A DNA stretch of 42,139 nucleotides from assembly GCA_024276995.1 (NCBI GenBank), contig JAJRWB010000039.1, positions 1 to 42,139 of the forward strand, read 5' to 3'. Shown in pieces: positions 3,598 to 15,736 of this stretch. This stretch comes from Candidatus Eiseniibacteriota bacterium. Its GTDB lineage: Bacteria > Orphanbacterota > Orphanbacteria > Orphanbacterales > Orphanbacteraceae. A program made the translations under genes and the position numbers. Within the stretch, counting starts at the first letter, position 1. Every line of letters starts with the position of its first letter. The notes beneath the pieces are model-generated. The model was not told the DNA's origin. It saw only the letters and a list, made by a program, of their open reading frames with translations, and did no database searches.

Positions 3598-3649
3598 CAC
3601 CTCCGGCGGGGATGAAACTTTCCCCCGACGGCGGCGTATAAGGGAAGTG

Positions 3650-4318
3650 ATGAGCGAGGGAACTCACAATGTAACGGGCGGGTCCGTTCCGGGTGGAGAA
3701 ACGGTCCCGAGGGAATGTGCCGGCGCGTACCGCCCCTCAAGAGGGCGCCGCTTCTGGGAGAGGACGAAAGAGATCGTCTTCATGATCGTGGCGGTTCTGT
3801 TCCTCCGCACCTTCGTCGTGCAGGCGTACCAGATCCCTTCCGGTTCGATGGAGAACACCCTCTTGGTGGGCGATTTCCTGATCGCCAACAAGTTCATCTA
3901 CGGTCCCCCTATTCCCTTCACCGATTTCAAGATCCCCGGCAAGGAACCGAAGCGGGGGGACGTCGTCATCTTCCGCTCTCCCACCGACAACAAGGATTTC
4001 ATCAAGCGGTGCATCGCCCTGCCCGGAGAAGTGGTCGAGATCCGGGACAACCGTGTATACATCGACGGCACGTATCTGGAGGAGGATTACGTTTCGCTGA
4101 AAGGGTTCTCCCCTCCCGAGGCGAACTTCGGGCCGATCACCGTGCCCGAGGGTCATATCTTCGTACTCGGCGACAACCGGAACAGCAGTTTCGACAGCCG
4201 GTACTGGGGGGCGCTCGACGAACACCGTCTCAAGGGGAAGGCGGAAGTGATCCACTGGTCGTGGGACCGCCGGCACCATAGACCCCGCCTCGCCCGTGTG
4301 GGCGATTTGATCCGCTAG
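3650..4318 (+). CDS. lepB: signal peptidase I
   Basis: This type I signal peptidase cleaves signal peptides of proteins exported by Sec or Tat. The 222 residues contain one N-terminal membrane segment (about 42-55), the catalytic serine in QIPSGSMENTL (Ser66), the general-base lysine in FIKRCIALPGE (Lys119), and the C-terminal GDNRNSSFDSRYWG box. All catalytic residues are present. A short cytoplasmic N-tail of about 35 residues precedes the membrane segment. ATG 3650 is preferred; GTG 3647 is in frame and also possible. A TATAAG box ends only eight bases before the ATG and AAGGGA overlaps it, so either a very short leader or a proC read-through transcript may be used. The 3' end overlaps the convergent gene by four bases. 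Confidence 0.95.
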   Translation: MSEGTHNVTGGSVPGGETVPRECAGAYRPSRGRRFWERTKEIVFMIVAVLFLRTFVVQAYQIPSGSMENTLLVGDFLIANKFIYGPPIPFTDFKIPGKEPKRGDVVIFRSPTDNKDFIKRCIALPGEVVEIRDNRVYIDGTYLEEDYVSLKGFSPPEANFGPITVPEGHIFVLGDNRNSSFDSRYWGALDEHRLKGKAEVIHWSWDRRHHRPRLARVGDLIR

Positions 4319-7489: not shown

Positions 7490-8487
7490 TCCGCTTCCTC
7501 TCCCATCGCCGCGAGGAGCTTCGCGGCCCTGCCGGCCACCGCCGCATCGTCGCCCACCGCCATCTCCCTCAACCGGTCGGCGAAGGTGAAAGGGCCGTCG
7601 GGGGAGGCGAGCTTCGCGGCGAGATCGTGAAAGAGACGCCCGTCGTCGCCCGTAAGGAGGACGGCGTACCGCCCGAGCTGGTCCGCCGCCTCCTCGTAGT
7701 CCTTCCGCCTAAGGGCGAGGAGCGCTAGGCCCCATCGTCCCTCGGCCGATCGGCGGTCGTGGCTCACCACCTCGCGGTAGAGCCGTTCCGCTTCGAGATC
7801 CTGCCCGAGATGAAGCCGGCAGTCGGCGAAGCGAAGGCGCGCACTGTTCCTCGCGGCGCGGGGAAAATCCTCTCGCTCCAGTTCGGCGAGAGCGTCCTCG
7901 TAACGGGAACGTGACCGGAGGAGATCGACGAGGGCGAGACGCACGTCGGTGTTGCCCGGTTCCTTGTCGAGAGATTTCCGGAAATACGTCTCCGCCTCCC
8001 ACGCCGCTTTCCGCCTCTCGGAAAGAAGCCCGAGCATGTAGAGTCCTTGCGCCGTCTCGCCCGCCCCGTATTTCTTCGCCAGGAGAATCTCCTCTTCCGC
8101 CTTCTCCATCTCACCCATGTCGTAGTGGAGCCGGCCGAGACCGAGATACGCCTCGCCGTAGGTCGAGTCGAGCGCGGCCGCCGCCTGGAACTCCTTTTGC
8201 GCTCCGTCGAGATAGCCGGTGGCGATGAATACCCTTCCGAGCCCATAGTGGGCGGGGGCGTACCGGGGATCGATATCGAGGGCATCGTTGAACGAACCCA
8301 TGGCGTGAGAGAAGCTGCCCTTCTCGAGAAGCTCGAATCCTTTCGCGGTGATCTCTTCGCAATCGGGCGCCTTGCGCCCTCCGAAAAGGGAGAAACAGCC
8401 CGGCAGGAGCGCGAGCAGAAGGGCGGCGAGAGTCGCTCGCCGACGGCCTCCTCGCCCGATTCGTTCCTGTTTCGTCGCGCCGCTCAT
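7486..8487 (-). CDS. TPR-repeat lipoprotein
   Basis: This is a 333-residue predicted lipoprotein. After a basic start (MSGATKQERIGRGGRRR), the hydrophobic run ends in LLALLPGCFSLFG, a lipobox with Cys at about residue 31. The rest is tetratricopeptide repeats (for example APAHYGLGRVFIATGYLDGA, GEAYLGLGRLHYDMGEMEKA), about seven or eight of them. TPR proteins are interaction scaffolds, and this one would face the periplasm. A longer frame reaches 8652, but the ATG at 8487 is chosen because it overlaps the preceding stop as ATGA and places the signal sequence at the N-terminus. Both junctions are 4-base overlaps, so it is coupled to genes on both sides. Confidence 0.85.
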   Translation of the reverse strand: MSGATKQERIGRGGRRRATLAALLLALLPGCFSLFGGRKAPDCEEITAKGFELLEKGSFSHAMGSFNDALDIDPRYAPAHYGLGRVFIATGYLDGAQKEFQAAAALDSTYGEAYLGLGRLHYDMGEMEKAEEEILLAKKYGAGETAQGLYMLGLLSERRKAAWEAETYFRKSLDKEPGNTDVRLALVDLLRSRSRYEDALAELEREDFPRAARNSARLRFADCRLHLGQDLEAERLYREVVSHDRRSAEGRWGLALLALRRKDYEEAADQLGRYAVLLTGDDGRLFHDLAAKLASPDGPFTFADRLREMAVGDDAAVAGRAAKLLAAMGEEAE

Positions 8488-8718: not shown

Positions 8719-10056
8719 CTACGCGGCTTCCGTACCGGTCATGATTTCGAACCGCCTTCCGATCGCAAGGGCGATGATGATCCATGCCGACACGAGAACG
8801 AGGTTCACCAGGGCGAAGTTCTTCGTGGTGAATGAAAGGAATGTCGTCCCCACGAAAACGAGAAGCGCCGAGAGGACATCGCCCGATCGGACGAAGAACG
8901 TGTCGATCGCCTGCTTCGCCTTGTATTTCTGCTCCCGCGTCGTCGGGAGGAAGAGCATGTTCCGAATCGTGTTGTTGAGCGAGTAGTCGGTGGCGTTCTC
9001 CGCCGTTTTCGCCCAGCGGACCGCGACGAGAACGGGGAAGAAGGCGAGGATCGCGTAGCCGAAGAATGCGATCACCGGAAGGACGAGAAGTGCCGCGCGC
9101 GCGCCCGCGTACTTGATGACCCGGGACACGAGGAAGAGCTGGGTCAGCAGGCTGATCGTATTCACCACGGCGAAGAAATCGGAGTAGAACTTTCCGATGA
9201 ACTCGCCCGCCGAGAGTCCTCCCGCGCTACCGCCGGCCACCGCGCGTTCCGCCGCCTCCTTGATCGTGGCCCCGAGGATGTACTCTCCCGTGGTGTTTAC
9301 CCAGTTGAGCATGAGAAGGAGCAACCCGATCAGGAGAAGATAACGGTTCGTCAAGACGAGCCGGAACGCGCCGGCGGAGCCGACCGGTTCGTCGGCCTCC
9401 GTCTTTTCTCCGGTGACGCGCCCGGCGCTCCGGGCGCGCTCCCGGGCGTCGATCACGTTGGTCAGGACGAGACTGAGAACGAGAAGCACCGCCGAAAGGA
9501 GGAGGAGTTGGTAGACACCGAGCGGACCGATCAGCCGGCCGGTGATGAAACTGCCGAATACGGCGCCCGACGACATGCCGAAGGCGATCACGGCGAAGAG
9601 GCGCTTCCCTTCTTCCGGTGTGTAGATATCGTTGGTAAACGACCAGAACTGGGCGACCACCATGAGATTGAAGATCCCGACCCAGAGGAAGAAGACGATG
9701 CCGAGGGGAACGTGGAGACGGGCGAGAAAGTAGAACGCCACGAGGCACGCCGCGAAGAAGAGGGTGACCGTGTTGATCAGCTTTTTCCTGGGCATCGCGC
9801 CCGCCAACTTCGCGTAGAGCGGCACCGCGCCGAGAAGAAGGATCGCCTGGCCCGCGGAGAGGTATGATTTCATCTCGGCGCCGCCGCCGGTGAGGATCAG
9901 CGCCTCGCGGACCGGCTTGATGATGTAGTACGTCGTCAGGAGAACGAAGACATTCAGGCAAAGGAGGAGAACGGTCGGCCCTTCGCCCGCATTCATTTCG
10001 GTGAACAGGCCGAGAAAGCGCTCGAGGAGACCTTTCGGTTGCGGTCGGTCGGCCAT
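8719..10056 (-). CDS. Npt1/Npt2-family (ATP/ADP translocase-like) nucleotide transporter
   Basis: This is a 445-residue integral membrane protein with about 11-12 hydrophobic segments. It resembles the bacterial Npt1/Npt2 (TLC/AAA nucleotide transporter) family. Supporting blocks are the N-terminal YYIIKPVREALILTGGG, which matches the family's conserved first-helix region of KPxREAL type, and WVGIFNLMVVAQFWSFTNDIYTPEEGKRLF. Characterised relatives exchange ATP for ADP or import nucleotides in obligate intracellular bacteria, while homologues in free-living lineages are mostly untested. AAGGAG precedes the ATG by four bases. It lies 40 bases upstream of the zinc-ribbon operon on the same strand and may share its transcript. 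Substrate is not known; calling it an ATP/ADP exchanger would be over-assignment. Confidence 0.82.
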   Translation of the reverse strand: MADRPQPKGLLERFLGLFTEMNAGEGPTVLLLCLNVFVLLTTYYIIKPVREALILTGGGAEMKSYLSAGQAILLLGAVPLYAKLAGAMPRKKLINTVTLFFAACLVAFYFLARLHVPLGIVFFLWVGIFNLMVVAQFWSFTNDIYTPEEGKRLFAVIAFGMSSGAVFGSFITGRLIGPLGVYQLLLLSAVLLVLSLVLTNVIDARERARSAGRVTGEKTEADEPVGSAGAFRLVLTNRYLLLIGLLLLMLNWVNTTGEYILGATIKEAAERAVAGGSAGGLSAGEFIGKFYSDFFAVVNTISLLTQLFLVSRVIKYAGARAALLVLPVIAFFGYAILAFFPVLVAVRWAKTAENATDYSLNNTIRNMLFLPTTREQKYKAKQAIDTFFVRSGDVLSALLVFVGTTFLSFTTKNFALVNLVLVSAWIIIALAIGRRFEIMTGTEAA

Positions 10057-10204: not shown

Positions 10205-12406
10205 TCAGCGGATGAGGACGAGACGACGATTCGCCGCACCCGCCGCGGAACGGACCGACGCGAAGTAGACGCCGCTCGGTGCCGCCCTGCCGGAAGCATC
10301 CCGGCCGTCCCAGCGGACTTCCAAGGCACCCGCCGTGGTCCAGTCGTCGAAGAGGGTGCGCACGAGCCGCCCGGCAGGATTGTAAACGGCGACGATCGCA
10401 CGGCCTGTGCCGACCGCCGTTTCGAGAGTGGTCGCCGGGTTGAACGGGTTCGGGCGGGCGAGGAGCGTCGGTTCCGCCGGCGGGAGGCGATCGCCCCCGA
10501 GAGCGACGCCCACGGTCCCCTCCTCGCGCCAGGGAGCCGACCCGCCGAACGTAGCGGCGATCAGGCGGTCGGCGACGAAGGCGACATCCCTCGTGTCGGC
10601 AGGTGAAAGCCCGTTGGAAAGATCGCTCCACGACGCCGCGCCGTTCGTCGATTCGAAAATACCCCCGGCGGTCGAGGCGATCAGGTGGTTCCCGTCGAAA
10701 GGATCGATGGTGATCGCCCAAACACTCAGATCGCCGAGGCCGCTATTCTTCGAAACCCACGTGAGACCGCCGTCGGTCGACTTGTAGATCCCGCCGAGCC
10801 CGGAGTCCTGGTAATAGCCGCCGGCGTAGAAGACCGTGCTGTCGGTCGGATCGATGGCGGCGGCGCGGACGTACGGGTCGGGCAGCGGAAGGGAAGTCCA
10901 CGTGGCGCCGGAATCGGCCGACTTGTAGAAACCCTCGCCGTACGTGCCGGCGAGGAGGATCGACGGCGCGCCGGGAGACGAGGCGAGTCCCCACACTTTG
11001 CGCGAACCCATGCCGCTCCACGAGGAGTTCCATGTGACCCCGCCGTCGCTGCTCCGGTACACGCCGCCGTACGTGCCGACGACCACGAGGGAACTCGTGC
11101 CGGGCCGGAAACGGAGGGAGGTGACCGTCGCCGCCGAGCCGAGTCCCGAATTCGACGCCGACCACGACACGCCCCGGTCGGTGGAGCGCCAAACGCCGCC
11201 GTAGAACGCCCCGGCGAGAAGCTTCGCGCCGTTGTTCGGATCGACCGCCACGGCGCGGCAATCGAAGGCGCCGAGTCCGCTCGACGCGTCGCTCCACGAC
11301 CAGCCGGTATCGGAGGTCACCGAGATTCCGCCGTACGACGCGATCCAAGCTTCCCCCGGTGTGTCGCTCGACGGCGTCACCTCCCAGGCGAAGCGGTTCG
11401 ACAACCGATCGTTCCGCTCGATCCAGCCCGCCGCCGGGTCGGCGGAACCGTGGACGCCTCCCCAGTACGATCCGACGAACAGCGTATCCGCCATGGCGAG
11501 GAGCGACCCGGTCACCGTGTCGCCGAGCGCGCTGTTCCAGGCGACCCACGACGCACCGGCATCGGAACTGCCGAACACGCCCGACCGCGTCGCCGCCCTC
11601 AGCAGCGCGGACGATCCGGGGGCGAACGCGAGCTGCTCGACGTAGACCGGCCCCATGCCGTTGTTTCGCGCCGTCCAGCCGACGCCGCCGTCGGTGGTGC
11701 GATAGACACCCGATCCCGCGGTGGCGGCGTAGGCGATGACCGCGTTGGAAGGATCGACGATCACGTCGGTCACGATCGCTCCGCCGAGCCCCGCCGACCT
11801 CAGCGTCCATGACGCGCCGTCGTCGTCCGAACGGAACACGCCGTCGCCGGTGGCGGCATACCATCGCCCCGGCGACGAGGGGGCGCACGCCACCGAATGG
11901 ACGGTGAGATTCGTAAGACCCGCGTTCCCGCTCAGCCAGCTGCTCCCCCGGTCGTCGCTGTAATAGATACCGCCGCTCGCCGTCGCCGCGAGGAGTCGCC
12001 CCCCCGAGGAGGCGAAACGGATACGGTTCACCGTCAGGTCGCCGAGACCGCCGTTCACCGGGAACCAGCTTTCTCCCCGGTTCGCGCTCCGATAGACCCC
12101 TCCCCCCCCCGTGCCGGCGAGAAGGGTATCGGCGTTCGTCGGATCGGCGGCGAGGGAGAGCACATCTTCGAAGGTGAGGCCGTGGTTCGCCGCGGTCCAA
12201 CCGCCGCCGCTCCCGTCGGAGTGGAAGATCCCCCCCCGCTCGGTGCCGATGAAGATGTGCCGCGCCTCGTCGGGCATGGCGATGATCTCGTGGACCCTTC
12301 CGCCGTACGGCCCTCCTTCCGCGGTCCACATCGAGTAGCCGCAGGTGGCGGGGGCGGGCAGCGCCGCGAGGGCGAGGAACGGGATGAATAGGGCGATTCG
12401 CTTCAT
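10205..12406 (-). CDS. secreted BNR-repeat protein with FlgD-type C-terminal tail
   Basis: This is a 733-residue exported protein. The signal peptide ends near residue 22 (PAPATCG). Residues of about 25 to 630 consist of a dozen or more sialidase/BNR-type beta-propeller repeats, each with a GVYRSxDGGxSW-like turn (for example GGGVYRSANRGESW, GGVYRSSDGGVTWNSS). The C-terminal 80 residues form a FlgD-like Ig domain: RPNPFNPATT, VRWDGRDASGRAAPSGVYFASVRS and a final LVLIR. In FCB-group bacteria such tails mark exported or surface proteins. BNR propellers occur in glycosidases and in non-enzymatic surface proteins; no catalytic signature was found, so no enzyme activity is claimed. The gene stands alone; a terminator lies upstream at 12521-12491. 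Confidence 0.85.
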   Translation of the reverse strand: MKRIALFIPFLALAALPAPATCGYSMWTAEGGPYGGRVHEIIAMPDEARHIFIGTERGGIFHSDGSGGGWTAANHGLTFEDVLSLAADPTNADTLLAGTGGGGVYRSANRGESWFPVNGGLGDLTVNRIRFASSGGRLLAATASGGIYYSDDRGSSWLSGNAGLTNLTVHSVACAPSSPGRWYAATGDGVFRSDDDGASWTLRSAGLGGAIVTDVIVDPSNAVIAYAATAGSGVYRTTDGGVGWTARNNGMGPVYVEQLAFAPGSSALLRAATRSGVFGSSDAGASWVAWNSALGDTVTGSLLAMADTLFVGSYWGGVHGSADPAAGWIERNDRLSNRFAWEVTPSSDTPGEAWIASYGGISVTSDTGWSWSDASSGLGAFDCRAVAVDPNNGAKLLAGAFYGGVWRSTDRGVSWSASNSGLGSAATVTSLRFRPGTSSLVVVGTYGGVYRSSDGGVTWNSSWSGMGSRKVWGLASSPGAPSILLAGTYGEGFYKSADSGATWTSLPLPDPYVRAAAIDPTDSTVFYAGGYYQDSGLGGIYKSTDGGLTWVSKNSGLGDLSVWAITIDPFDGNHLIASTAGGIFESTNGAASWSDLSNGLSPADTRDVAFVADRLIAATFGGSAPWREEGTVGVALGGDRLPPAEPTLLARPNPFNPATTLETAVGTGRAIVAVYNPAGRLVRTLFDDWTTAGALEVRWDGRDASGRAAPSGVYFASVRSAAGAANRRLVLIR

Positions 12407-12490
12407 TCACTCGACCGTTTCGGGAAACGCCGGCGGGATGCGCGGCCTCGGGGGAGCACGTTCCTTATCAGCTATCCGCAATGGATTACG

Positions 12491-12521
12491 AAAAAGGGGA
12501 GGCCGGTCGCGGTCCCCCCTT
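12491..12521 (-). terminator. Rho-independent terminator of the small RiPP-like gene
   Basis: Read on the minus strand, AAGGGGGGACCG and CGGCCTCCCCTT form a 12-bp stem (one G-T pair, one A-C mismatch) around a CGAC tetraloop, followed directly by a T run. It lies 31 bases after the stop codon of the 39-codon gene and separates that gene from the BNR-repeat gene. Confidence 0.65.
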
Positions 12522-12552
12522 CTCGTCTATTCTATTCGCTGCCGGCTACGTC

Positions 12553-12672
12553 TCAGGAGCCCCCGCCTTGATCGTCATTCGGCGGCGTGAAAGAGGTCAA
12601 CGTGATCTCCTTCAGATTCCCGTGACGCGTAACCTCAGGTTTTTCATAGTCTTTACGGTTTTTCGCTTCCAT
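12553..12672 (-). CDS. putative RiPP precursor with lasso-peptide-type leader (39 aa)
   Basis: This very short gene has strong support. ATG 12672 follows GAGGAAGG by seven bases; a promoter lies at 12752-12724 and a hairpin terminator at 12521-12491. The 39-residue product carries the lasso-leader spacing YxxPxVxxxGxLxxxT: Tyr9, Pro12, Val14, Gly18, Leu20, Thr24. In known lasso precursors that Thr is the penultimate leader residue. Cleavage after Leu25 would release TSFTPPNDDQGGGS, with Asp at core positions 8 and 9, where the ring-closing acid sits in lasso peptides. The tail after the acid is short and has no bulky plug residue, so a threaded lasso is doubtful. No B (PqqD-like or protease) or C (cyclase) gene lies in the window. 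An alternative is a non-lasso RiPP using the same leader type. Confidence 0.7.
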   Translation of the reverse strand: MEAKNRKDYEKPEVTRHGNLKEITLTSFTPPNDDQGGGS

Positions 12673-12723
12673 CGGAGCACCTTCCTCGTTGCACAACTGA
12701 AAACCATATATCTTACGAAGTCA

Positions 12724-12752
12724 ATGGTATCATACCCGGTTCCGACGGTCAA
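12724..12752 (-). promoter_or_regulatory. promoter of the small RiPP-like gene
   Basis: On the minus strand TTGACC (12752-12747) and TACCAT (12729-12724) are separated by 17 bases. Transcription would start near 12717, leaving a leader of about 45 bases with a GAGGAAGG ribosome-binding site. Confidence 0.6.
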
Positions 12753-12766
12753 GCCGGAAGCGTGCG

Positions 12767-12782
12767 AAAAAGGGTCTCCCCT
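12767..12782 (-). terminator. possible weak terminator after the NEW3-repeat gene
   Basis: On the minus strand AGGG-GAGA-CCCT, a 4-bp stem with a GNRA-type loop, is followed by a run of T. It begins at the stop codon of the large secreted protein gene. The stem is very short, so this may only attenuate transcription. Confidence 0.35.
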
Positions 12783-15688
12783 CACCGTATGAGCACCATC
12801 CGCTTCGTCTCTTCGCGCCCGGCGCTCTTGAGGGAGTAGAAATAGATCCCCGAAGGTACATCCGCTCCACGATCATTCCGGCCGAACCACTCGAATTCAT
12901 GGTCCCCCGCGTTGAGATGTCCCGACCAGAGAGTGCGCACCATCTGCCCCGCCGCGTTGTGGATCACGAGACTCGTCTCGCCGTCCGACGGGAGACGGAA
13001 AGCGATCTTCGTGCGTGGATTGAACGGGTTCGGCACATTCTGACCGAGCCGGAAGAGCGCCGGGGCACCCGGTGCCTGAAGCTCGCTCGGATCGAGGAAC
13101 TCGGGATCGAGACGGATCTGGAGCGGCGTCGGACACGTGTCGGTGTACGCTACGTCGAACCAGACGTTGAAGCTCCCGCCCGGGTAGTTCGTCAGGTCGA
13201 ACCGGTACGTCGGGTTCGACGCGTCTCCCCAGCTCATGGCGCCATCGGGAAGATCGCCGTAGAACGCCGACGGGTCGGGAATGGTAAGCCACGAGATATT
13301 GTTATCCATTGTCGCGGTGATCGATCGCGCCTCCCCCGGTCCCGTGTTCTTCAGCTCCACCTGGACGTCCCAGAACGTGCCGTCGAAGGCGACCGTCTGA
13401 ACGCCGCCGAGCTTCAGCACCGGAGCGGCGATATCGCACGCCGTGGAGACGCGGGTGGTCAGGCTGTCACAGACCGGTTCGAGCGGGCGGGCGGCCTCTT
13501 TCGGAAACGGCCCGCAGCTTGCGCAGACTCGCACCTGGTCTTCATCGCCCTGCTGCGCGTCTGCCGGAATCACATGCTTCACGCCGACATCCTGGTGCTG
13601 GCTCGGTCCGAACGGCCCGACCTGCCCGGAGACGATGACCCAGCCGTGGGCGCTGGAGAAACTGACGAACGGGGTCGCTTCGCAGTTCCCCTCGTTGGTG
13701 ATCCGGAAGATGTACGACGCCGTGTCGCCCGGCGCTCCGATGAATTCGGCCGTCTGCGCCGCGATCGACCAGAGGCAGACCTCGTCCACACCGAGCGGAG
13801 CATCGCCGGTGTGGGCCACGAGCGTATCGCAAGAGACCGACTTGGCCGTCAGGTAGACGATCGCCTGCTGGGTGCAGAGTGCTTCGGCCGGAATGGTCAC
13901 GTCGACAAGGATCTGCTGCGTTCCCGTAAACGGCCCGACCGGGTTGCTTCCCTGGATCGATGCGGTCCAGCCGAGATCGGTTTCCGCCGAGAGGCTGAAC
14001 TGATCCGAAGCGCCGTTGTTGACCAGATCGAAGGTCACCGTCACTACCGCGCCCGGAAGACCGGACGCCGGATTCCCCGCCGCGGCCGCCACCGAGAAGT
14101 CGGGTGTGCAGTCCGCCTGGCGTACCGTGCTGGTCACGCAGTCGTCGGGCTCGGGTGGCGGGTTTCTCGACTTGTTCCCCGGAGGAGTTATAGAGAGGCA
14201 GAGACCATCGATATCGCCCGGCTGCGCGTCCGCCGGAATGATGTGCTTCCAGCAATACTCGACCGAATCGCCCGGATCGAGGGAGAAAATTTGCGCCTGT
14301 GTCGGGTCCTCGGACCACGCCGACGCGAACGCGACGGCGGTGAACGTTCCCCGGCAGTTCCCGGTATTCGTGATCGTCCAGCAGTACTCGAGGGAGTCGC
14401 CCGGATCACCGACCTGGTCGCCGGGTGAATCGACGCTGTAGCCGAAGACCTCCTGGACGCATTCATCGACGGTCGCCGAATCGGCGGCGCCGAAGAGCTG
14501 ACCGATCGCTTTCAGCTGCAGATTCGCCATATCGGTGCACAAAGCGCCCGCGGAGATCGTCAAGTCCACGGGAACTTGCACGGTATCCCCCGACACGCCG
14601 GACATGTTCACTCCGAGCGGCAGCGTCGCCGTCCAGCCGGGTTTATCCACCGTGGCTTCAAGGGTGAATATATCGTCGCACGCCCCGGTGTTCGTCACAT
14701 CGAAAAAGACCTGCTTCGTCGTCCCGGGAGTGCCGCAAACGCCGTTCAGCTGTGCGATGACCGTCACGCCGGACGGGAAGGCCACCGTGGTGGTCACGCT
14801 GTCGGAATCGGACACCGCCGGATCCCCCACCTTCGACGCCTTCAACTCGAGGATGTCCGTTACCGTGATAGGCAGCATGACCGGACAGGGCAAATCGGCG
14901 GGGACGATCAGCTTGACCGTGACGTCGACGCTGTCCGAGTCGGCGACCGCCACCGGGTTCGCCGAGGTCACCGTCGCGCTCCACCCGTTCGAGGAGGTGG
15001 ATACGAGATCGAAATCTTCCGCCACGTTGCCGGTGTTCTTCACCTTGAACACATAATCGATCGCCGTTCCGGGAACGACGGGCGACGGATCGGCCGGGGC
15101 GACCACGTCGACCCCTTCCACCGTGCTGACGCACTCGAAGGGAGGGCACGTCTCGCCCGGCGCGCTAAACACGCCTGAACTGAAACTCGTGAAGAAAACG
15201 CCGCTTTTCGCACCATCCATCACGAACCCGAGACAGCCGTCGGCGGCGGCGGCGAACTGGAACGTGCCGTGCTTCCCACCCGGGAAGGGGTTGGCGAACG
15301 AGAAGTCGGTCGCCTGCACGAGCCAGCAGTAGAGATTCGGGTAGGCCGCCGTCAGCGCGGGATCGATGTCGGTGGTCTTGAGCATCGGAGTATTGGTCCA
15401 CCCCCCCGGTGTTGCATATGTGTAACTCACCGAGTTGGTGTCCACCATCGACTTGTCCTGCACGCAGAACGTACAGTTCGCGGAGAAGACGGGCGCCATG
15501 TCATAGAAATAAAGATCGAATGACAGCGTATCCCCCGCCGCCACGGCGGCGATTCCCATATCGCTCGCCGATGTGCACCCGGGAACACCGTCATGCTCGA
15601 GACCGACGCTCTTCGCGAGAGCCGTTCCCGCGGGGAGAAAGAGAAGGGTAACGACCATGGCGATGACGCCGAACTTCGCTGTTTTCAT
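12782..15688 (-). CDS. large secreted protein with repeated NEW3/CARDB-like Ig domains and FlgD-type tail
   Basis: This is a 968-residue exported protein. A signal peptide (residues 1 to about 25, ending GTALA) is followed by a unique N-terminal region of about 190 residues with paired cysteines. Then come about five Ig-like domains of the NEW3/CARDB kind, each with a PG-x-x-x-Y-x-F/W-x-V-x-NTG core (for example DYVFKVKNTGNVAEDFDL, YCWTITNTGNCRGTF, FRITNEGNCEATPF). Several domains carry extra cysteines likely to form disulfides. The C-terminal 85 residues form the FlgD-like tail (NVPNPFNPRTKIAF, VPSGIYFYSLKS, MVLIR). The start is ATG 15688, with GGAGG five bases upstream. Probably a structural or adhesive surface protein; no catalytic motif is seen. 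Confidence 0.85.
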   Translation of the reverse strand: MKTAKFGVIAMVVTLLFLPAGTALAKSVGLEHDGVPGCTSASDMGIAAVAAGDTLSFDLYFYDMAPVFSANCTFCVQDKSMVDTNSVSYTYATPGGWTNTPMLKTTDIDPALTAAYPNLYCWLVQATDFSFANPFPGGKHGTFQFAAAADGCLGFVMDGAKSGVFFTSFSSGVFSAPGETCPPFECVSTVEGVDVVAPADPSPVVPGTAIDYVFKVKNTGNVAEDFDLVSTSSNGWSATVTSANPVAVADSDSVDVTVKLIVPADLPCPVMLPITVTDILELKASKVGDPAVSDSDSVTTTVAFPSGVTVIAQLNGVCGTPGTTKQVFFDVTNTGACDDIFTLEATVDKPGWTATLPLGVNMSGVSGDTVQVPVDLTISAGALCTDMANLQLKAIGQLFGAADSATVDECVQEVFGYSVDSPGDQVGDPGDSLEYCWTITNTGNCRGTFTAVAFASAWSEDPTQAQIFSLDPGDSVEYCWKHIIPADAQPGDIDGLCLSITPPGNKSRNPPPEPDDCVTSTVRQADCTPDFSVAAAAGNPASGLPGAVVTVTFDLVNNGASDQFSLSAETDLGWTASIQGSNPVGPFTGTQQILVDVTIPAEALCTQQAIVYLTAKSVSCDTLVAHTGDAPLGVDEVCLWSIAAQTAEFIGAPGDTASYIFRITNEGNCEATPFVSFSSAHGWVIVSGQVGPFGPSQHQDVGVKHVIPADAQQGDEDQVRVCASCGPFPKEAARPLEPVCDSLTTRVSTACDIAAPVLKLGGVQTVAFDGTFWDVQVELKNTGPGEARSITATMDNNISWLTIPDPSAFYGDLPDGAMSWGDASNPTYRFDLTNYPGGSFNVWFDVAYTDTCPTPLQIRLDPEFLDPSELQAPGAPALFRLGQNVPNPFNPRTKIAFRLPSDGETSLVIHNAAGQMVRTLWSGHLNAGDHEFEWFGRNDRGADVPSGIYFYSLKSAGREETKRMVLIR

Positions 15689-15736
15689 CCGAACCTCCGT
15701 GAAATGTGCTGATTGGCCTACCAATTAGGAGTATGC

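Follow-up and report, generated by a model that had tools for sequence, protein, structure and literature searches.

What a solitary lasso-type leader peptide does between two surface-protein genes, and which enzymes could mature it, was the question raised by a 39-codon open reading frame on the stretch of DNA analysed here, a contig of 42,139 nucleotides (JAJRWB010000039.1; hereafter, the window). The first-pass annotation had described the frame as an orphan RiPP precursor gene, and had proposed that its enzymes either act from another locus or that the leader type serves something new in this phylum. The features of the locus are as follows, all on the minus strand.

12782..15724, minus strand: upstream neighbour, a 980-aa repeat protein with an FlgD_ig tail
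12724..12752, minus strand: sigma-70-like promoter, TTGACC-17-TACCAT, from the promoter scan
12680..12687, minus strand: ribosome-binding site GAGGAAGG, 7 nt ahead of the ATG, read from the sequence
12553..12672, minus strand: precursor gene, 39 codons, ATG start, stop codon included, encoding the peptide MEAKNRKDYEKPEVTRHGNLKEITLTSFTPPNDDQGGGS
12601..12672, minus strand: leader through the conserved Thr24, MEAKNRKDYEKPEVTRHGNLKEIT; the NF033521 match spans residues 9-25
12592..12594, minus strand: Ser27, three residues past the leader Thr, a proposed phosphorylation site by inference from Ser3 of the Linear Polyphosphorylated Peptides (LPP)
12556..12597, minus strand: predicted core TSFTPPNDDQGGGS, assuming Thr at -2
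12491..12520, minus strand: GC-rich hairpin followed by TTTTT, terminator-like on folding
10205..12406, minus strand: downstream neighbour, a 733-aa sortilin/BNR-repeat protein with an FlgD_ig tail

The precursor peptide scored 22.8 bits against the NCBIfam lasso_leader_L3 model NF033521, for which the curated cut-off is 19, with an E-value of 7.7e-4 in the search of its own genome. Matches to the leader model were confined to the precursor family in the 60 genomes searched. The exact Y-x2-P-x-V-x3-G-x-L-x3-T spacing reported by the first-pass annotation is present in the sequence, as is Asp at core positions 8/9 if Thr is at -2; the core gains one residue, starting at Leu25, if cleavage follows the Thr as in LPP. 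An alternative TTG start, giving 47 aa, was dropped in favor of the ATG because the latter lines up with the starts of the homologues.

The gene's signals were largely as first described. The 17-bp-spaced promoter was recovered in a scan that found two promoter-like sites in the region versus 0.1 expected, the ribosome-binding site lies where it had been placed, and both neighbours carry the FlgD tails attributed to them. The terminator was confirmed in part: folding gave the hairpin and its T-run, but a consensus terminator scan made no call at 12491..12520. The Rfam search of the window matched no RNA element. The reading as a monocistronic gene for a RiPP precursor whose leader is of the lasso type is supported.

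Homologues of this precursor, called distal here for its separation from the enzyme cluster described below, were found in five of six related genomes (G001, with two copies, G002, G003, G004 and G006); with its own genome included, the distal precursor is present in 6/7 phylum genomes examined. In the five relatives the homologues adjoin homologues of the same two surface-protein genes (window 12782-15724 and 10205-12406). The remaining relative, G005 (82% complete), has the enzyme cluster, and no convincing precursor was found in it. Each of the seven distal genes, that of the window among them, is preceded by a sigma-70-like promoter, with the -35 element starting 55-85 bp before the start codon; a promoter of this kind occurs in 0.8-2.7% of shuffles. 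Folding revealed a comparable hairpin 3' of every homologue. Between homologues, the 20-codon leader region had a pS of about 0.4-1.0 and a pN of 0.04-0.3, a comparison for which the near-identical pair G003/G006 is uninformative. By this comparative evidence the 39-codon frame is a real gene under selection.

Several other features of the neighbourhood were observed. In G001 (contig C2, L048), the large surface-protein gene stands between two precursor genes, at 7646-7762 and 12388-12483. A homologue of TLC-type ATP/ADP transporters (PF03219) is encoded beside the surface-protein locus at window 8719-10056 and is kept there in G001, and the signal peptidase I gene at window 3647-4318 has counterparts close to the precursor in G002, G003 and G004.

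Alignment of 11 precursors, those of the enzyme clusters among them, found Y9, P12, I23 and T24 unchanged throughout, and the Ser at T+3 (Ser27 in the window peptide) was likewise invariant. The leader His was retained in ten. The conserved Tyr, Pro, Gly and Thr that the first-pass annotation had asked of homologues were thus present except for the Gly, kept in only 8/11. Core sequence and length differ between genomes. Asp 8/9 of the core is not conserved; G003 and G006 have E10 and D10, respectively, and one of the two G001 peptides, G001b (MKKKTYEKPRVEKHGTLKEITLTSFQPPPPK), with the core TSFQPPPPK, has no Asp or Glu at all. The peptide from the window, G001a and the G004 peptide have a C-terminal Ser, while the C-terminal residue is Lys in G001b, Val in G003, Ala in G006 and Gly in G002, and the cluster precursors are also without a Ser at this position.

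The window encodes no maturation enzyme, in keeping with the first-pass annotation. The lone B1 and B2 of the genome, a PqqD-like B1 (RRE) and a B2 (PF13471, NF033537), are both on contig C3. The gene order there is NUDIX, a second precursor, B1, HprK-like kinase, B2, NTP_transf_5, ABC ATPase, ABC permease and a sulfatase-family gene. The second precursor, MRHEKENYVKPELKRHENLKTITLVSDPKLHLERHELYVGDEL (L002 4617-4748, G000:C3, G000 being the genome of the window), has a similar leader in which the Gly is replaced by Glu. The order B1, kinase, B2, nucleotidyltransferase, ABC ATPase and permease, with exactly one B1 and one B2 each, was found in all seven phylum genomes. A B2 search of contigs matched four phylum members and, weakly, one other.

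B2 keeps Cys89, His123 and Glu135, all of them invariant; Glu135 we take to be the third catalytic residue, judging by the spacing of 12 after the His in other B2 proteins. From these residues B2 is likely the leader peptidase. The HprK-like kinase retains the P-loop and DD motif and was assigned by Pfam/NCBIfam similarity; it scores far under every HprK-related NCBIfam cut-off, and for this reason its substrate is only inferred. The exporter consists of a separate ABC ATPase and a DrrB-like permease.

The separation of the precursor from these enzymes recurs in the relatives. Computed from coordinates, the NUDIX-B1 gap is roughly 490-760 bp in clusters holding a precursor, versus only about 120-160 bp, without a precursor ORF, in G001, G003, G005 and G006. 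The single precursor found in each of G003 and G006 is the distal one, and their clusters have no room for another. Because a cluster conserved in this way must have something to act on and there is no other candidate, the distal peptide would be the cluster substrate in these two genomes. In G001 and G004 the precursor and the cluster are on different large contigs, with hundreds of kilobases separating the precursor from the ends of its contig, and the two loci are therefore truly apart. The precursor inside the C3 cluster has a leader similar to the distal one, and the cluster would therefore handle this leader type. That the enzymes act on the distal precursor from another locus, one of the two possibilities originally offered, is well supported by the single conserved B1/B2 cluster and by the two genomes in which the distal peptide was the only precursor found.

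We therefore favor, with a probability of about 0.7, the reading that the product of the 39-codon gene is processed in trans into a linear, lasso-leader RiPP, for which the steps of binding, phosphorylation, cleavage and export are all predicted from gene content. The leader, YxxPxVxxHGxLxEIT, would be bound by the genome's only RRE, that of B1, and the HprK-like kinase would phosphorylate the invariant Ser three residues past the leader Thr. NTP_transf_5 may attach a further group, for which the hexose on phosphate of pseudomycoidin is a precedent. The B2 cysteine peptidase would then cut off the leader and the ABC transporter export the peptide; no cyclase would act, and no lasso would form. 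The most economical prediction, modeled on one characterised LPP, is that Ser27 is the residue phosphorylated, because the T+3 Ser is invariant and matches LPP Ser3, and the C-terminal Ser is not conserved. The neighbourhood by itself suggests a role at the cell surface.

A true lasso could nonetheless be matured in trans by B1 and B2 of C3 together with a cyclase encoded elsewhere, such as an AsnB-like protein on contig C17, with the ring closed on Asp8 or Asp9. The leader, with a Thr near its end, fits the lasso model, B1 (RRE) and B2 exist, and Asp at 8/9 is found in the window precursor alone. However, none of the seven clusters was found to encode a lasso macrolactam cyclase or Asn_synthase, and the acidic acceptor is not conserved at core 7-9, shifting to position 10 in G003/G006 and disappearing in G001b. 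The C17 protein is the sole full-length AsnB-like protein of its genome and exceeds the general asparagine synthase cut-off, but its best model is the XrtA/PEP-CTERM amidotransferase TIGR03108 (574 bits versus a cut-off of 816.9), and with 278 bits it reaches about half the cut-off of 525 for the lasso cyclase NF033535. AsnB-like proteins occur in 7/7 genomes, and this classification covers the G000 protein only. Two weak Asn_synthase matches in the same genome were rejected as cyclases because their sequences, on inspection, look QueC-like (C4) and LarE-like (C80). The genome search suggested at the outset thus returned B1 and B2 but, for the cyclase, only a protein below the cut-off. Because the clusters are without a cyclase and no acidic acceptor is conserved, a lasso is unlikely and was set aside; the lasso core of the first-pass annotation was not supported, and its own doubt about a threaded lasso was justified. 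From the gene content, the product probably does not take on the lasso fold at any stage.

It is doubtful, too, that the kinase modifies the C-terminal Ser rather than Ser27. The kinases of paeninodin and pseudomycoidin do target a C-terminal Ser, and the peptides of the window, G001a and G004 end in one, but this residue is missing in G001b, G003, G006, G002 and the cluster precursors, whereas the T+3 Ser is found in every precursor. The distance of the enzymes and the short, variable core would also fit a leader gene that is still transcribed but whose peptide is no longer matured, serving as a decoy or regulator or persisting as a relic. We regard this as very unlikely, given the strong purifying selection on the leader, the retention in relatives of the gene's promoter, hairpin and neighbours, and the lack of any other precursor found in G003 and G006. 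A frame of just 39 codons in a GC-rich genome rich in spurious ORFs might even have arisen by chance, an explanation with a negligible probability that is refuted by the homologues at the same locus in five relatives and by a pN far below pS.

In a wider survey, B2 was above its cut-off in 35 of 386 genomes. Loci outside the phylum with B1, kinase and B2 and no cyclase nearby were L087, L088, L089, L092 and L094; the other loci counted as cyclase-less sit on short contigs, from which a cyclase may have been cut off. In the kinase tree, 16 cyclase-less kinases, all seven phylum kinases among them, were apart from the lasso-cluster kinases. This split had a support of 91/97, just under the tool's star, and three label changes versus 7.0 when shuffled (0/500). 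The B1 tree separated cyclase-less from lasso loci less clearly. The T+3 Ser is sometimes replaced in other cyclase-less lineages, by Thr in several and by Asp or Asn in G231. The latter genome has a cyclase-less B1-B2-kinase-NT cluster (L087, G231:C7) with two local precursors bearing a KPTLTKHKPLRDIT leader, and further precursor-like genes on other contigs, two on its C17 (L118, L119) and one on C5 (L120, a search match); G323 has one precursor-like gene on another contig. Weak distal leads (E 0.01-0.02) were seen in G193 (L111), G048 (L113) and G026 (L112), genomes with B2 present and no local precursor found. Their small ORFs have a leader-like F.EPxL....L.[DE][IV]TL and resemble one another in their C-terminal Phe-Phe stretches. 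We tentatively raise, at somewhat less than even odds, the broader possibility of a separate linear lasso-leader RiPP class, defined by B2 and an HprK-like kinase, that occurs in several lineages with scattered precursors missed by cluster mining and that in this phylum is a core trait of the envelope, linked to two surface-protein genes.

RiPP mining usually seeks precursors beside enzymes. Here, enzymes without an adjoining precursor and a precursor without adjoining enzymes belong together, and both halves would therefore be misfiled. Because it is in every phylum genome examined, at conserved places, the system appears to belong to basic cell biology and not to be a mobile weapon, as judged from its distribution. 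It places linear peptides related to the phosphorylated lasso peptides outside Bacillota as well, represents a cyclase-less design that retained the lasso peptidase, and offers a direct test of what such phosphopeptides do.

Among known systems, the phosphorylated (glycosylated) lasso peptides of the paeninodin/pseudomycoidin type have in common with the present one B1, B2, an HprK-like kinase, a nucleotidyltransferase and an ABC transporter. They differ in having a cyclase, a mostly WxxP leader and a phosphorylated C-terminal Ser, whereas the cluster here has no cyclase, the leader is YxxP and the conserved Ser is near the leader junction. The match to NF033521 (L3) is above the cut-off, but the model spans the leader only and implies no lasso core. 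In open-licence papers, a literature search for distal lasso precursors, HprK with PqqD, and cyclase-less B2 systems returned nothing beyond the paper on LPP. These Bacillota peptides are made with an RRE, an HprK-like kinase, an NTP transferase and an exporter, without a cyclase, from precursors with the motif YxxPxVLxHQxIxFETxxS (Popov et al. 2026, PMC13381572). The cut comes after the Thr, and Ser3, the sole phosphorylated residue, receives several phosphates from the kinase; LPP were described as Bacillota-restricted and patchy, with precursors inside the cluster (PMC13381572).

The phylum system shares with LPP the absence of a cyclase from the cluster, a discrete RRE, the HprK-like kinase, the NTP transferase, an ABC exporter, and the spacing of Tyr, Pro, His, Thr and Ser, with the Ser three after the Thr. 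Within the motif YxxPx[VLI]xxH..[IL]xxxTxxS, the Y, P, T and S spacing is found in 11/11 precursors and the His in 10/11. Unlike in LPP, B2 sits in the cluster, where LPP use an archaeal/SipW-type signal peptidase (LppS). No SipW/archaeal-type signal peptidase (TIGR02228) was found in the seven genomes, in which control models did match, and the signal peptidase I of the window, considered as an LppS substitute, was rejected as the ordinary bacterial type (TIGR02227). The LPP exporter is MsbA-like and in one piece, as opposed to the two-part exporter here. The present cluster is also outside Bacillota, in every phylum genome examined (7/7), and has precursors at a distant surface-protein locus as well. 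The best fit is the suggestion of a new use for the leader type in this phylum, qualified by the related linear family known in Bacillota. Because both the SipW-type peptidase and the exporter type fail to match, we term the system LPP-like rather than LPP, with the Bacillota LPP family as its closest known kind.
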